This document shows positions 24,394 to 58,654 of a stretch of 64,000 nucleotides of DNA, one piece after another. The stretch is taken from assembly GCF_022899245.1 (NCBI RefSeq), contig NZ_JALJAZ010000001.1, forward strand, positions 1,957,001 through 2,021,000, in the 5' to 3' direction. Numbering within the stretch: position 1 is the first letter of the stretch; each line of letters opens with the position of its first letter. This DNA is from Falsirhodobacter halotolerans (GTDB lineage: Bacteria > Pseudomonadota > Alphaproteobacteria > Rhodobacterales > Rhodobacteraceae). The notes beneath the pieces are model-generated. The model had not been told where the DNA came from, ran no database searches, and saw only the letters and a list, made by a program, of their open reading frames with translations. The position numbers were made by a program, and so were the translations under genes.

Positions 24394-24470
24394 TGGCGCG
24401 GTTGACGGGGCTCGAACCCGCGACCCTCGGCGTGACAGGCCGATACTCTAACCAACTGAGCTACAACCGC
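24394..24470 (-). tRNA. tRNA-Asp (GTC), copy 1
   Basis: A 77-base gene reading leftward. Acceptor GCGGTTG pairs with CAACCGC, the anticodon loop is CTGTCAC with GTC, the T-loop is GTTCGAA, the discriminator is G, and 3' CCA is encoded. It is identical to the second copy 31 bases away and ends close to a bidirectional terminator. Confidence 0.97.
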
Positions 24471-24501
24471 ATTCCAACGGCAGCAGGACTTGGGGCGAAA
24501 G

Positions 24502-24578
24502 TGGCGCGGTTGACGGGGCTCGAACCCGCGACCCTCGGCGTGACAGGCCGATACTCTAACCAACTGAGCTACAACCGC
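24502..24578 (-). tRNA. tRNA-Asp (GTC), copy 2
   Basis: A second 77-base copy with the same sequence as copy 1, including encoded CCA. The tandem spacing of 31 bases and common orientation imply one precursor transcript. A GTC anticodon makes it a substrate for queuosine modification through QueA. Confidence 0.97.
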
Positions 24579-26681: not shown

Positions 26682-26907
26682 GGGCGGCATCCTCCAGGGT
26701 TCGGAACAAACGATCACGTTCGGCCACGGCGCGCAGCCGCGCAGCCTCGGCCCGGCGGGCGGCGGCGGCGGCGGCCTCTGCCCGGGTCTGCGCCTCGGCC
26801 AAACGCAGGGCGGCGGCCGTGTCGGCGGCACGATGCCCCATCCGCCACCCATGCCCCCCGCAGGCCAACCCGAAGGCCAGCAACGCAAGGATCAGCCACG
26901 CCCTCAT
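26614..26907 (-). CDS. Rz-like inner-membrane spanin (i-spanin)
   Basis: A 97-residue type II membrane protein. An N-terminal helix (RAWLILALLAFGLACGG) is followed by an alanine/glutamate/arginine-rich coiled coil (RLAEAQTRAEAAAAAARRAEAA), the general layout of Rz/LysB proteins. The ATG at 26905-26907 overlaps the endolysin stop as ATGA. The o-spanin gene starts within its last third. Sequence alone is low-complexity; the assignment rests mainly on size, topology and position after a muramidase and before a lipobox protein. Confidence 0.78.
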   Translation of the reverse strand: MRAWLILALLAFGLACGGHGWRMGHRAADTAAALRLAEAQTRAEAAAAAARRAEAARLRAVAERDRLFRTLEDAAHADPDASALSLRADSVRRLNQR

Positions 26908-27512
26908 GACGCCACCAGATCGGGCACCTTCGCCCATTTCGCATAAGCCGCCGCCAACCGCGTGTGGTATCCGTGTCTGGCGTAGCCTGCGCCGTTATAG
27001 CCCCGCGCAAAGGCCGACCAGTCATGGCGGCGCAGTTCGTCATCCAGCCCCTCGGACTGGATGAACCGCACCATCGCCTCAAGCTGGGCCGGCTCCGAAT
27101 CCATGAAGGCCGCGACCATCGCCTGCGCGGTCGGGTATCCGGCGGCCTTGTGGTTGAACCCCATGATCTGCCCCAGACCCCAGGAACAGGACCGCAGTGC
27201 CGCCACCGGATCCAGCATCATCGCCATGACCAGGCGGGGATAGCTGTCGCGCGGATAGGGCTTCTCCCCCCATTTGGGATAGGCAAGGCCCGCCCGTTCC
27301 GCCCCACGGCGCTTGGCCTCGGGCAGTTCGCGCCAGAAGACATGCGGCTCGAACAACATGCGCGGGCGGCCCTTGGCGTCGAACCCGCCGCCCGCCGTCT
27401 CCACCTCGATCACGGCGCGGATTTCGTCCTCGCCCACGCCGATCAGCGCGCCGATCTCCGGCAGATCGTAGTCGTTCAGCCGCACCGCGCGGCCCTGAAA
27501 GCGGTGTGTCAT
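26904..27512 (-). CDS. Endolysin: N-acetylmuramidase (DUF3380 family)
   Basis: A 202-residue peptidoglycan hydrolase. The pattern IRAVIEVETAGGGFDAKGRPRMLFEPHVFWREL contains the conserved catalytic glutamate of the family. YPRDSYPRL, SCSWGLGQIMGFNHKAAGY and FARGYNGAGYARHGYHTRLA are further family hallmarks. There is no signal peptide, so it needs a holin to reach the wall. The ATG at 27510-27512 overlaps the stop of the upstream 30-codon ORF and has TGGGGG upstream. All five genes of the cassette overlap, which implies a single, tightly coupled transcript. Confidence 0.92.
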   Translation of the reverse strand: MTHRFQGRAVRLNDYDLPEIGALIGVGEDEIRAVIEVETAGGGFDAKGRPRMLFEPHVFWRELPEAKRRGAERAGLAYPKWGEKPYPRDSYPRLVMAMMLDPVAALRSCSWGLGQIMGFNHKAAGYPTAQAMVAAFMDSEPAQLEAMVRFIQSEGLDDELRRHDWSAFARGYNGAGYARHGYHTRLAAAYAKWAKVPDLVAS

Positions 27513-27601
27513 AGGAACCCCCAGATGAAAATGACGACGGCAAGGGCAAGGGACCAGGTGCGGCATTCCTCGGCGACCAGACGGCGGATGGGATCAGGCA
27601 T
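27509..27601 (-). CDS. Thirty-residue single-pass membrane peptide in lysis cassette
   Basis: A tiny ORF whose product starts MPDPIRRLVAEECRTW and ends in a hydrophobic helix (SLALAVVIFIWGFL). It begins eight bases before the holin stop and its stop shares bases with the endolysin ATG. That perfect fit in the overlap chain makes it likely real in spite of its length. It could be an antiholin, a second pore-forming peptide or a translational coupling ORF. No homologue is known to me. Confidence 0.6.
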   Translation of the reverse strand: MPDPIRRLVAEECRTWSLALAVVIFIWGFL

Positions 27602-28274: not shown

Positions 28275-28931
28275 ATGGAATGGACCCATCTTCCCGGCCG
28301 GGCGGATTATGCGGCAACCCTTGCCGCGATGGAGGAACGGGTCGCCCGCATCGCCGCCGGTGACGCACCCGAGGCGGTCTGGCTCTTGGAGCATCCGCCC
28401 CTCTATACCGCCGGCACCTCGGCCGACCCCCAGGATCTTGTGGCCCCCGACCGTTTCCCCGTCTTCGCGGCCGGGCGTGGCGGGCAATACACCTATCACG
28501 GGCCGGGGCAGAGGGTCGCCTATGTGATGCTGGATCTGGGCGCCCGCGGACGCGACGTGCGCAAATTCGTCTGCGCGCTGGAGGGCTGGGTCATCGCCAC
28601 CCTCGCCGAATTCGGTGTGCGGGGCGAACGGCGCGAGGGGCGCGTCGGCGTCTGGGTCGCCCGCCCCGATCTTCCCCCGACCGCGACCGGCGCCGTGCGC
28701 GAAGACAAGATCGCGGCCATCGGCGTCAAGCTGCGCCGCTGGATCAGCTTTCACGGCATCTCCATCAATGTCGAACCCGATCTGGCCCATTTCGACGGCA
28801 TCGTGCCCTGCGGCATTCGCGATCACGGCGTCACGAGCCTTGTCGATCTGGGCCTGCCGGTCACCATGGCGGATGTGGATGCGGCCCTGATGGCCACCTT
28901 TCCCGATCATTTTCCGAAGGCCGCGCGATGA
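28275..28931 (+). CDS. lipB: Lipoyl(octanoyl) transferase
   Basis: Transfers octanoate from acyl carrier protein to the lipoyl domains of 2-oxoacid dehydrogenases and the glycine cleavage H protein. It has 218 residues. Family motifs are [56 protein letters not shown] (catalytic lysine) and [14 protein letters not shown] with the acyl-thioester cysteine. The end overlaps the following membrane protein gene as ATGA. It supplies the cofactor used by the complexes that contain LpdA at the left edge of the window. Confidence 0.96.
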
Positions 28932-30130
28932 CCGCCCTGCTGACCACCGATCCCCGGCGAATCGCCCTTGCTCATACCGCGCTGGCGTTGGTGGCGGGCG
29001 CGCTGGCCTTGGCGGCGGTCCTGATCCTGCGCGCCACCCCGACCCTTGCCGATGCGCTGAGCCTGGCCCATGGCGCAATCCTGACCGTATTCGTGACGTT
29101 GCCGGTTCTGTTCTGCGGGCTGGGCCTCTGGCGCATGGCGGTGATGATCGGCGCGCCGGGCCTCGCCTATCCCCGCGCCGCCAATCTTGGGGCATGGCTG
29201 CATGGCGCAAGCCTGCCCACCGGGGCCGCATCACTTCTGCTGGCGGACGCGCGGCTCGCGCTTGCGGCGTTGGCGTTGATGGCGACCTGCCTGATGATCG
29301 GCGCGTTCAACGCGATCGCGACCTTCCTCAATATGCGCGCGCCGGGCGTGACGCTGGCAAAGGCCGCACCCCTCGCTTGGGCCACTTCGCTGACCGGGAT
29401 GGTGATCCTGACGGCCCTGCCAGTGATGATGGCCGCCGCCATGGATCCCGTTCCCAGCCTTCCCGCCCTGCGCGACATAGTCTGGGTCACCGGGCAGCCG
29501 CATCTGACGGCGCTGTGTCTTCTGACGCTGGGCGTGGCGTCCAGCCTGCTGCCCCCCCCTCGTCGCAGGGCGCTGGCGCAGGGCAGCCTCGGGATGATCG
29601 CGGCACTGGGACTTGTCTTGTGGTTGCAGCAGGTGCTGAACACCGGGCCGATGCCCGATGCACAGGCCATGTTCCGCCTTACCATCCTGATCGCTGCCCC
29701 CTTCGCGCTGCTGTTCGCCGGCGCGGGCTGGGGGTTGCCGCGCGGCCCGCAGGCCGTCTGGATCATCGGGATGATCGCCGCCACCGCCGCCGGCCTTCTT
29801 CCCTTGGCCGAGGATATGACCGCCCGCCTTCATGGGATCCTCGGCCTCGCCTCGGTCTTTGCGACCTTCGGGGCGACGATGCTGTGGTTTCCTGCGCTGA
29901 CCGGACGGCACCTGCCGCCCCGCATGGCATATGGGCAGGCCGTGGCAATGGTCGCGGGGGGGCTTCTGACGCTCCTTCCCGCCGCGCAGCCCATGGCCAC
30001 GATCGGCATGGCGCTGATGACGGGGGCCTTCATGGCCTTTCTCGGCATGGCCGCCTGGGCGTTGGCCTTCGGCCCCCGCGCGCCCACGGAAACGGCGGAG
30101 GCGCGCTCCGCCGCGCCCCAGATCAGCTGA
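28928..30130 (+). CDS. Oxidase subunit I-like membrane protein lacking the binuclear-centre ligands
   Basis: A 400-residue protein with about ten to twelve hydrophobic helices. It aligns by eye with CtaD-type cytochrome c oxidase subunit [22 protein letters not shown] and [15 protein letters not shown] match TM2 and the next loop, and [17 protein letters not shown] is almost identical to the CtaD signature. His48 and His302 fall at the two low-spin heme ligands. The copper-B and high-spin heme positions are changed: the HPEVY motif is QPHLT (Gln190), the HH pair is Gln234-Gln235, and the heme a3 histidine is Arg300. It is about 150 residues shorter than CtaD. Oxygen reduction is therefore unlikely; a one-heme electron carrier, sensor or heme/copper insertion partner is possible. 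It is coupled to lipB by ATGA. Confidence 0.8.
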
Positions 30131-30578
30131 GCCGGGCCTTCACCTGCGGCCCCACGGCGGCAAAGTCCATCTGGCCGGTGTAACGCGTCTTCAACTCCGC
30201 CATCACCCGCCCCATGTCCCGAAGCGAGGTTGCGCCCGTGGCGGTCACGGCGGCATCGATCGCCGCCGCCACTTCGTCGGGCGACAGGCGGCGCGGCAGG
30301 AACTCCTCCACCACCTTGATCTCCGACCGCTCCTTCGCGGCCAGCTCGGGCCGCCCGCCCTCGTCATAGACGCGCGCGCTTTCCTGACGCTGCTTCACCA
30401 TCCGCCCCAGCACGGCCAGAATGTCGGCATCCGACACCGCCTCCTGCCCCTCGCCGCGCGCGGCGATGTCGCGGTCCTTGATGGCGGCGTTGATCAGGCG
30501 CAGGGTGGACAGGCGGTCACCATCGCGGGCGCGCATCGCCTCTTTCAGCGCATCTTGCAGTCGGTCGCGGGTGCTCAT
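30123..30578 (-). CDS. GatB/YqeY domain protein
   Basis: A 151-residue soluble helical protein. It opens RDRLQDALKEAMRARDGDRLSTLRLINAAIKDRDI, and the middle has ILAVLGRMVKQRQESARVYDEGGRPELA. The C-terminal half (MGRVMAELKTRYTGQMDFA) corresponds to the tail domain of the GatB amidotransferase subunit. The stand-alone family is suspected to act on tRNA or amidated substrates, but its role is unproven. The ATG at 30576-30578 has AAGGA seven to eight bases upstream. Its end overlaps the convergent oxidase-like gene by eight bases. It diverges from carA. Confidence 0.92.
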   Translation of the reverse strand: MSTRDRLQDALKEAMRARDGDRLSTLRLINAAIKDRDIAARGEGQEAVSDADILAVLGRMVKQRQESARVYDEGGRPELAAKERSEIKVVEEFLPRRLSPDEVAAAIDAAVTATGATSLRDMGRVMAELKTRYTGQMDFAAVGPQVKARLS

Positions 30579-30711: not shown

Positions 30712-31863
30712 ATGGAGCCGCAATCGAAACCCACCGCCTGCCTGGCGCTGGCCGATGGGACGGTCTTCTACGGACGCGGCTTCGGCGCGACCGGGGAAAC
30801 GGTGGCCGAACTGGTGTTCAACACCGCCATGACCGGCTATCAGGAAGTGATGACCGATCCCTCCTATGCAGGTCAGATCGTCACCTTCACCTTCCCCCAT
30901 ATCGGCAATGTCGGCACCACGGCGGAAGACGATGAAACCGCCGATCCCGTCGCGGCGGGCATGGTCGTCAAATGGGACCCGACCGAGCCGTCGAATTGGC
31001 GCGCCACCGAAACGCTGAACGAATGGCTGCGGCTGAAGGGCCGGATCGGCATCGGCGGTCTCGACACCCGCCGCCTGACCCGCGCGATCCGCCAGCAGGG
31101 CGCACCCCATGCGGCCCTTGCGCACGATCCCGACGGCAATTTCGACGTGCCCGCCCTTGTGGCCCGCGCCAAGGCCTGGGCCGGTCTGGTCGGCCTCGAC
31201 CTCGCGCGCGACGTGACCTGCGCGCAATCCTATCGCTGGGATGAAATGCGCTGGGCTTGGCCCGACGGGTTCAAGAAGCGCGAGGGCGAGGGCCTGCGCG
31301 TCGTCGCCATCGATTATGGTGCGAAGCGCAACATCCTGCGCTGCTTGGCCTCGGCCGGTTGCGACGTGACGGTCCTGCCCGCCACGGCCACCGCCGAGGA
31401 GGTGCTGGCCCTGAACCCCGAAGGCGTGTTCCTGTCGAACGGCCCCGGCGATCCGGCGGCCACGGGCGAATATGCCGTCCCGGCGATCAAGGGCATTCTG
31501 GAGCGTGACATTCCGGTCTTCGGCATATGCCTCGGCCACCAAATGCTGGCCCTCGCCCTTGGGGCGCAAACGGTGAAGATGAGCCACGGGCACCACGGCG
31601 CGAACCACCCCGTCAAGGACAATGAGACGGGCAAGGTGGAGATCACGTCGATGAACCACGGTTTCACCGTGGACAGCCAGACCCTGCCCGCCGGCGTTTC
31701 GGAAACCCATGTCAGCTTGTTCGACGGATCCAATTGCGGCATCCGCATGGATGGCCGCCCGGTCTTCTCGGTGCAGTATCACCCCGAGGCGAGCCCCGGC
31801 CCCCAGGACAGCTATCACCTGTTCGAGCGGTTTGCCGAGGCGATGAAGACCCGCCGCGCCTGA
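30712..31863 (+). CDS. carA: Carbamoyl-phosphate synthase small subunit
   Basis: Glutaminase subunit that feeds ammonia to CarB for pyrimidine and arginine synthesis. It is 383 residues. The N-terminal domain begins KPTACLALADGTVFYGRGFG. The class I glutamine amidotransferase domain has the nucleophile in VFGICLGHQMLALALG, and the His-Glu pair in VQYHPEASPGPQDS. The ATG at 30712 follows AAAAAGGAG. carB is not adjacent; the next gene is a glycosyltransferase 73 bases on, so the two subunits are encoded apart, as is usual in this family of bacteria. Confidence 0.97.
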   Translation: MEPQSKPTACLALADGTVFYGRGFGATGETVAELVFNTAMTGYQEVMTDPSYAGQIVTFTFPHIGNVGTTAEDDETADPVAAGMVVKWDPTEPSNWRATETLNEWLRLKGRIGIGGLDTRRLTRAIRQQGAPHAALAHDPDGNFDVPALVARAKAWAGLVGLDLARDVTCAQSYRWDEMRWAWPDGFKKREGEGLRVVAIDYGAKRNILRCLASAGCDVTVLPATATAEEVLALNPEGVFLSNGPGDPAATGEYAVPAIKGILERDIPVFGICLGHQMLALALGAQTVKMSHGHHGANHPVKDNETGKVEITSMNHGFTVDSQTLPAGVSETHVSLFDGSNCGIRMDGRPVFSVQYHPEASPGPQDSYHLFERFAEAMKTRRA

Positions 31864-57224: not shown

Positions 57225-57406
57225 GGCGGAACCTTCTGGCGGAAGCGGTGTCCGCCAACTTAAAGTTGCATACGAGAGCATAAGGATGCTTTAGTCGTGT
57301 TAACATACAGTCCTATCAATAATTTGACCACATCGTTGATTGCATTCCCCTGCACCTTCCGGCATCGAGTTGAACACCTGATGGTGGGATGGATGGGGGG
57401 ATAGAG

Positions 57407-58654
57407 ATGCCGCAGATAGCTAAAGAACTGGGCGTTTTGGCCGTCAAAAACATCAAGACGACTGGATATCATACAGTAGGCGGTGTGCCCGGCCTCATGC
57501 TCAGCGTCGGCGCTGCAGGCAATAGGTCTTGGATCTTGCGGATGACAGTGGGCGCGAAGCGCCGAGAATTCGGTCTAGGATCCTTTTCACAGGTTAGCTT
57601 GGCCGATGCGCGAGAGAAAGCTCGTGCGCTGCGTAACAAGATCGACGCGGGTATCGATCCGGTAGAGGAGAAGACCGAGGCCCGACGGCGCCTGAAAGAA
57701 AAACAGCGAAAAGACATTACCTTCTCTGAAGCAGTCACGCAGTTCCTCGGCACAGGACGCTTAAACCAATACAGCAACCTGAAACATCGTGCACAGATCG
57801 CATCGACGCTGACAGGCTTAGCTGTTCCGAAACTCGGCACCCTTGCCGTCAAGGACATTACTACGAACGACGTTCTGGAGGTGCTTCAACCGATTTGGGC
57901 AACAAAAACGGAAACGGCTTCACGTCTCCGGGGCAGGATTGAAAATGTTCTAACGTGGGCGTCAGTTCAAGGGCATCGCGTAGGTGATAATCCGGCCCGG
58001 TGGAAGGGCAACTTGGATGCACTTCTCCCTTCGGCAAGCAAAATTAAGAAGGAGAGTCATCATCCGGCTCTATCAGTAGCCGAAGTTCCAGCGTGGTTCG
58101 CGAAACTTCGGTCGCTCACCGGCCAGGGTGCTTTGGCTCTACAGTTCCTATGCTTGACTGGCGCCCGATCCGGGGAGGTGCGAGGTGCACGTTGGTCGGA
58201 GATCGACCTAAAGTCCAAGACATGGCGCATCCCTGCAGAGCGAATGAAGATGGGCAAGGAGCACCATGTGCCACTGAGCAGAGCCGCAGTAAAATTTGTG
58301 TCTGGGTTGCCCCGCGAGGCAGGTGTCGATCTGATGTTTCCATCGAGAAAGCAGCGCGCGATCTCTGACATGACAATCTCTGCCGTCATGCGAAGGATGC
58401 AGGAGAATGCTGAAGAACGTGGCGAGCGTGGATGGCGAGACTCGCGGTCTGACAAGCCAGCTGTGCCCCATGGCCTCCGGTCGACCTTCCGCGTTTGGAT
58501 TGCCGAAAACACCACATATTCGGACCAAGTTGCAGAAGCAGCTCTGGCGCACAAAAATCCAAACGCAGTAGTCCGGGCGTATCAAAGAAGCGACTTGCTC
58601 GAGCAACGACGACCATTGATGGAGGAATGGGCAACTTATCTAGGTGCGATCTAA
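57407..58654 (+). CDS. P4-type tyrosine integrase
   Basis: A 415-residue site-specific recombinase. A DUF4102 N-terminal arm-binding domain (PGLMLSVGAAGNRSWILRM, REFGLGSFSQVSLADAREKA) is followed by a core-binding domain and the catalytic domain. The active-site residues are Arg in TGARSGEVRGARW, Lys in MKMGKEHHVPLS, His/Arg in PHGLRSTFRVW, His in LAHKNPNAVVRAYQR, and Tyr in the same segment. It looks intact. Codon use is less GC-extreme than the genes to the left, consistent with transfer. No tRNA or direct repeat was found next to it, so the attachment site is unclear. Confidence 0.94.
   Translation: MPQIAKELGVLAVKNIKTTGYHTVGGVPGLMLSVGAAGNRSWILRMTVGAKRREFGLGSFSQVSLADAREKARALRNKIDAGIDPVEEKTEARRRLKEKQRKDITFSEAVTQFLGTGRLNQYSNLKHRAQIASTLTGLAVPKLGTLAVKDITTNDVLEVLQPIWATKTETASRLRGRIENVLTWASVQGHRVGDNPARWKGNLDALLPSASKIKKESHHPALSVAEVPAWFAKLRSLTGQGALALQFLCLTGARSGEVRGARWSEIDLKSKTWRIPAERMKMGKEHHVPLSRAAVKFVSGLPREAGVDLMFPSRKQRAISDMTISAVMRRMQENAEERGERGWRDSRSDKPAVPHGLRSTFRVWIAENTTYSDQVAEAALAHKNPNAVVRAYQRSDLLEQRRPLMEEWATYLGAI

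Follow-up and report, generated by a model that had tools for sequence, protein, structure and literature searches.

A derived cytochrome c oxidase subunit I of Falsirhodobacter with the heme a ligand positions kept and the ligands of the oxygen-reducing centre replaced

The ctaD* locus, its ancestry and its distribution

Our window, a stretch of 64,000 nucleotides from Falsirhodobacter halotolerans, carries directly behind lipB an open reading frame for a derived subunit I of cytochrome c oxidase, which we call ctaD* and whose start is joined to lipB by an ATGA overlap. The derived form is found in the source genome (G000) and in G297, G295, G298 and G150, and residues across these five are given in that order throughout; the canonical ctaD is found in G296 and G299. 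The features of the locus are as follows.

28275..28931, + strand: lipB, the ancestral upstream neighbour of ctaD
28928..30130, + strand: ctaD*, derived cytochrome c oxidase subunit I, 400 aa with 12 predicted transmembrane helices
29069..29071, + strand: codon of His48, an axial ligand position of heme a; occupied by His in all 5 derived and all 54 canonical proteins
29471..29473, + strand: codon of Arg182; Gln in the canonical protein, Arg in 5/5 derived
29495..29497, + strand: codon of Gln190, first CuB ligand position; Q,Q,H,H,Q across the derived five
29627..29632, + strand: codons of Gln234-Gln235, second and third CuB ligand positions; QQ,DR,QE,QD,QQ
29825..29827, + strand: codon of Arg300, which takes the place of the heme a3 ligand; all five derived proteins have Arg here, and their codons differ synonymously
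29831..29833, + strand: codon of His302, the other axial ligand position of heme a; likewise occupied by His in all 5 derived and all 54 canonical proteins
30123..30578, - strand: a gene that we take to be gatB (GatB/YqeY-domain protein), ancestral downstream neighbour; start codon picked by eye
30712..31863, + strand: carA, ancestral downstream neighbour

The product of ctaD* is a member of the heme-copper oxidase superfamily and has the COX1 fold. It lies over the Pfam COX1 cut-off (E 1.1e-14, 54.7 bits, cut-off 34.8), matches subunit I of Paracoccus and Rhodobacter in the PDB with E-values from 1.3e-19 (Paracoccus) to 6.7e-19, and fails the NCBIfam equivalog model for CtaD (TIGR02891) with 71.2 bits against a curated cut-off of 670.75. 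The predicted structure comprises 12 helices (pLDDT 71, pTM 0.77), and its best structural matches are the aa3 subunits I of R. sphaeroides and P. denitrificans with a TM-score over the query of 0.79-0.83, the range across the 50 matches listed being 0.75-0.83. The alignment behind the model had 12 rows, including eight canonical CtaDs and three derived relatives. Model confidence is low over much of residues 240-300 and also near R182 and R300; the placement of residues in ctaD* comes from sequence alignments and not from superposition of the model.

Seven genomes, assigned to Falsirhodobacter on the basis of their matched records, were available for comparison. The derived form is the only match of the ctaD* protein in five of them, and the other two match by their canonical ctaD. 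Searches with the window proteins (tblastn) revealed the order lipB-X-gatB-carA in all six same-genus stretches compared, where X is the canonical ctaD in G296 and G299 and the derived form in the other four, as in G000. The same arrangement, in which ctaD is preceded by lipB and followed by gatB-carA, in several cases with room for extra genes between, was present at 12 of 13 comparator loci, which comprise one stretch of genome G001 and 12 of the 29 loci from a genome-contig scan; beside ctaD of the remaining one, L098, none of lipB, gatB and carA was found. Since a canonical ctaD lies at the same place in congeners and comparators, the gene is therefore ctaD itself with an inherited lipB neighbourhood: ctaD* is the orthologue of ctaD, transformed in place. 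A first-pass annotation of this DNA had reported a COX1-type frame overlapping lipB, with which the Pfam, PDB and fold matches agree, and had called the coupling to lipB unexplained. A functional lipB link is ruled out, as the position is ancestral for ctaD. Given the chosen start codons, the gene begins 115 bp after the lipB stop in G296 and G299 and 32-52 bp after it in the four other derived genomes, and the gap in G000 is -4. A three-gene tree with outgroups places G296 and G299 outside the derived five with a bootstrap of only 63, and both the ctaD tree and the shared arginine agree with one origin of the derived form.

A protein search with ctaD* matched 279 of 295 family genomes, including the two genus members in this sample. 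Among the matches listed, no second derived case was seen outside the genus, and the open frames there comprise at least 540 aa, apart from one of 334. The 16 family genomes without a match were searched with profile A1, which returned three short matches (open frames of 79-199 aa) and none in the other 13. One genome-contig scan with ctaD* yielded no relative; a second yielded 29 loci, and of the 20 examined, 17 have canonical motifs and three, all from Falsirhodobacter, the derived form. Named derived loci are those of Falsirhodobacter sp. alg1, F. deserti and F. sp. 20TX0035. At E 0.001, ctaD* did not match the other COX1 genes of the four other derived genomes. A literature search over titles and abstract starts found no report on an A1 subunit I reduced to the heme a site, which is no proof of absence from print, and no paper that names Falsirhodobacter together with 'cytochrome c oxidase'. 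That an oxidase subunit was transformed in place is well supported; examples have so far come from some members of a single genus.

Elsewhere in the window we observed two tandem tRNA-Asp genes (24394-24578), a region which the ORF listing reads as ORFs with a repeated peptide, and a phage-type integrase gene (57389-58654, + strand). An N-acetylmuramidase gene (26904-27566, - strand) is adjoined by small ORFs without a Pfam match, and an N-acetylmuramidase stretch is also present upstream of lipB in G295, G150, G296 and G299.

Residues and loops kept and lost

For the analysis of individual residues, we used 54 distinct canonical CtaDs from loci fetched by similarity to ctaD*. These were chosen by the ligand motifs GHPEVY, AHFHY and HHM, and because of this choice the ligands are invariant among them by construction. 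In this alignment, H48 and H302 fall on the positions that we take to be the heme a ligands, R300 on the heme a3 histidine, Q190, Q234 and Q235 on the three CuB histidines and T194 on the cross-linked tyrosine. This is the assignment that the first-pass annotation had made, including its statement that all four ligands of the oxygen centre and the tyrosine are replaced in ctaD*, and the presence of other histidines at the CuB or a3 positions is ruled out by the same alignment. The bis-His positions of the low-spin heme carry histidine in 5/5 derived proteins, and the proximal histidine of heme a3 has become arginine in 5/5, so the earlier description of one heme site kept and the other lost extends to all five. 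The annotation had further asked whether its Q/Q/Q/R pattern is conserved and had named random variation at H48 and H302 as evidence against its reading. Among the five homologues found, all with intact frames, H48 and H302 are invariant and the arginine is constant, and the three glutamines vary. The codons of H48, H302 and R300 carry synonymous changes among the derived five. The first CuB histidine is kept in two of them (G295 and G298), the second and third in none; at the position of the cross-linked tyrosine the residues are T,V,Y,F,F, with tyrosine in one of five, and none of the five has the full set of CuB histidines plus tyrosine.

The 54 canonical proteins share 263 invariant columns, whose residue is kept in none of the derived proteins in 87 cases, in one in 57, in two in 43, in three in 25, in four in 24 and in all five in 27. 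Exactly two of the 11 canonical-invariant histidines are kept in 5/5 derived proteins, and these two are the heme a pair. With columns treated as independent, the probability that two retained histidines are just this pair is 1/55, and the probability that two random invariant columns both lie in the retained set is about 1%. Eight positions are fixed across the derived five unlike the canonical majority, three of them to arginine (canonical numbering: K26R, Q265R and H408R). None of the five has the Arg-Arg of the TM11-12 loop, the arginine at the position that presumably contacts the heme a formyl reads R,S,R,R,R with a serine in one of five, and the lysine at what we take to be the K-channel position is lost. 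In the model, Arg182 is located near the periplasmic end of TM6, where local confidence is low, and both R182 and R300 are near the periplasmic side.

Among the loops, those of the periplasmic face have shortened, with helices taken from the model and the sides of the loops assumed from the known topology. The periplasmic loops sum to 120 residues in the canonical protein of G296 compared to 29, 37, 69, 33 and 48 in the derived proteins, whereas the cytoplasmic loops sum to 41 residues in G296 and to 41, 37, 41, 40 and 38 in the derived ones. The form of G295 retains one long periplasmic loop of 31 residues, and that of G000 is the shortest. The cytoplasmic tails have shrunk from 24 to 7-13 residues at the N-terminus and from 45 to 12-21 at the C-terminus (8 and 19 in G000), and TM7, TM8 and TM9 of ctaD* have 25, 21 and 17 residues compared to the canonical 30, 27 and 28. 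With the CuA subunit gone, the periplasmic loops would have been free to shrink, a cause which we infer.

Partner genes and selection

In G296, a single cluster contains COX2, ctaB, Cox11, COX3 and SURF1 matches, followed by thrC. At the same site, the derived five have ctaB, a surf1-like ORF (surf1*) and thrC, where ctaB and thrC are the names we assume for these genes. Cox11 was detected in two of the seven genus genomes, G296 and G299, with no match in the derived five, and full-length COX3 and strong CtaC-type COX2 matches are confined to the same two. Weaker COX2 matches of other oxidases occur in all seven genomes, and the remaining COX3 matches cover profile positions 77-257 and adjoin other COX1 genes. 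None of the five derived genomes yielded CtaC, CtaE or Cox11, and their weaker or partial COX2 and COX3 matches were assigned to other oxidases by place or score. As an alternative, ctaD* might be a one-heme electron carrier or redox sensor, with a low-spin heme that is reduced by a quinol or a small redox protein and then passes the electron to a partner or signals. In its favour, both axial ligand positions are kept, and electron transfer is a common role of low-spin hemes in membranes; against it, the CuA subunit was not found, the periplasmic loops are shaved and no partner gene is evident beside ctaD*. We regard such a function as improbable.

A genome search for SURF1 found a second SURF1 in G150, G295 and G298, and in G000 and G297 surf1* was recovered only by local comparison. 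The surf1* of G000 lies outside the window at about G000:C1:1034415-1035023 (L165:8416-9024) and reaches 27.2 bits in Pfam (cut-off 23.4). The histidine which we take to be the heme ligand of Surf1 is lost in G000 and kept in four of the five, and a nearby tryptophan, whose role we likewise assume, is lost in two of five. Retention of Surf1* alongside ctaD*, in G000 without its putative heme-ligand histidine, would fit a heme-free protein that serves the remaining oxidases as a scaffold or in assembly and whose two histidines would be purely structural. However, of all canonical-invariant histidines it is exactly the heme a pair that stays in every derived protein, and we consider a heme-free protein very improbable.

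Only in G295 and G150, a hydrophobic-rich ORF is located between ctaB and surf1* at the place of ctaE (L161:7728-8300 and L160:7774-8439). These ORFs, of 191 and 221 aa, are about 55% identical to each other; their match to CtaE is not significant, and neither has a Pfam or NCBIfam match over the cut-off.

Other oxidases of G000 include a CyoB over the NCBIfam cut-off, whose gene adjoins a SURF1, and another CyoB-like protein that stays below this cut-off. A further COX1 of this genome is split over both ends of contig C3 (L052 from 8672, L053 3-1526), as expected of a circular replicon, with a Caa3_CtaG gene upstream. CtaA is present in all seven genus genomes. Its retention is not usable as a sign of heme A in ctaD*, since the CyoB beside SURF1 and the COX1 near Caa3_CtaG in G000 make it explicable without ctaD*.

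The ctaD* frame is intact in five of five derived genomes, although the protein has changed fast: mean identity among the five is 37% compared to 73-92% for four flanking genes, and ctaD* is more divergent at first codon positions (0.50) than the flanking genes and ctaB are at third positions (0.33-0.45). We estimated omega with our own codon model, using F3x4 and F1x4 and branch lengths either free or fixed to those of neighbours. With free branch lengths, ctaD* gave 0.21-0.23 (F3x4) and 0.33-0.34 (F1x4), and omega = 1 was rejected (2dlnL 162-239); for eight neutral simulations that were aligned by the same procedure, omega came out at 0.87-1.05. The free fit, however, makes the branches two to four times as long as those of the neighbouring genes. 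With the branch lengths of lipB, carA, gatB and ctaB, omega rises to 0.68-0.81 (2dlnL 37-113), in a fit that is worse than with free lengths. The corresponding values for surf1* are 0.20-0.25 free and 0.42-0.51 with the neighbours' lengths (2dlnL 177-290). Free estimates are 0.05-0.11 for lipB, carA, gatB and ctaB and 0.055-0.08 for the canonical ctaD of five other genomes. Judged by the omega on the neighbours' clock, ctaD* is therefore under real constraint, which is weak outside the positions that are kept.

Had the five genes evolved without constraint at the neighbours' rates, about 23-27 stops would be expected in them, and none of 2000 simulated runs was clean; 15 stops are expected at half the ctaB rate, and at a tenth of it 1.8% of the runs were clean. 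The intact frames rule out a plain pseudogene. A slowly dying relic of the aa3 oxidase, under strongly relaxed selection and of little or no use, is a rather unlikely but serious alternative, in which the heme a ligands survive because they help to hold the fold. It draws on the fast protein change and the high omega on the neighbours' clock, on the graded loss, with the long periplasmic loop of G295, the first CuB histidine of G295 and G298 and the shortest form in G000, and on the persistence of the ctaE-place ORF in only two of five genomes. Against it, the frame is intact in every derived genome where about 23-27 stops are expected, omega lies below 1 in every converged fit with surf1* constrained as well, and eight positions, three of them arginine, have been newly fixed in all five proteins.

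A one-heme reading and its relation to known systems

We give about even chances to the reading, built on sequence comparison, that ctaD* encodes a stable one-heme membrane protein retained together with a diverged Surf1*. It would resemble a frozen form of the SUI-Surf1c assembly intermediate of P. denitrificans, described in the excerpted text of PMC5249081 as subunit I with Surf1 before subunits II and III join. The ligands for oxygen reduction and the greater part of the periplasmic loops are gone from ctaD*, and the 12-helix core, the cytoplasmic loops and both axial ligand positions of the low-spin heme are kept. The protein would bind a single low-spin heme at H48/H302, probably heme A, and the co-retained Surf1* may contact it and help to supply this heme. 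The ctaD*-surf1* pair would thus represent the SUI-Surf1 intermediate made permanent, minus Cox11/CtaG. Because of its ligands, ctaD* should not be an oxidase; a weakly supported role would be the handling or buffering of heme A, or assembly, for the remaining heme-copper oxidases. Counting against this one-heme reading are that heme binding is deduced from two residues, that constraint is weak, that the Surf1* histidine is lost in G000 and the tryptophan near it in two of five, that the presumed formyl arginine is a serine in one of five, and that the cytoplasmic tails and, in G000, TM7-TM9 have become shorter. Moreover, loss of Surf1 in R. sphaeroides costs mostly heme a3, according to the excerpt of PMC9145763, which makes a Surf1* that serves a heme-a-only protein awkward.

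A bolder version, which we offer tentatively and consider unlikely as a whole, would be a new cytochrome converted in place: a permanent SUI-Surf1 intermediate with its periplasmic face removed, in which R182 and R300 perhaps hold the heme propionates in place of the lost Arg-Arg loop and Surf1* acts as a dedicated heme A partner. With its unchanged congeners, the genus provides a baseline case for what an oxidase subunit becomes after the loss of its catalytic partners. If ctaD* binds heme, it would be a naturally occurring protein in which the low-spin site is the one heme site of cytochrome c oxidase left, and it could help with the open question of how heme A enters subunit I and of the part played by Surf1. 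Both genes of the ctaD*/surf1* pair could be deleted with no functional aa3 oxidase being affected.

Among known systems, the SUI-Surf1c intermediate, as presented in the excerpt cited above, likewise pairs subunit I with Surf1, a contact that in Falsirhodobacter is presumed. The pair of ctaD* and Surf1* differs from it in that it would be permanent, in the strong divergence of both proteins and in that Cox11 was not found in the derived genomes. With the A1-type aa3 CtaD of Paracoccus and Rhodobacter, ctaD* shares the locus of the genus, the 12-helix fold, the heme a histidine pair and the motifs of the cytoplasmic loops. It differs in the heme a3 ligand, the CuB site and the K-channel lysine, in the lost Arg-Arg of TM11-12 and the shaved periplasmic loops, and in that CtaC and CtaE were not found in the genomes. 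The 'degenerate' B-family oxidases of alphaproteobacteria, which according to the excerpted text of PMC6431628 are without the catalytic tyrosine and may have lost oxygen reductase function, are alike in belonging to the heme-copper superfamily and in the possible loss of this function. Compared to that description, ctaD* is not a B-family protein without the tyrosine and instead represents an A1 enzyme whose binuclear site is gone.
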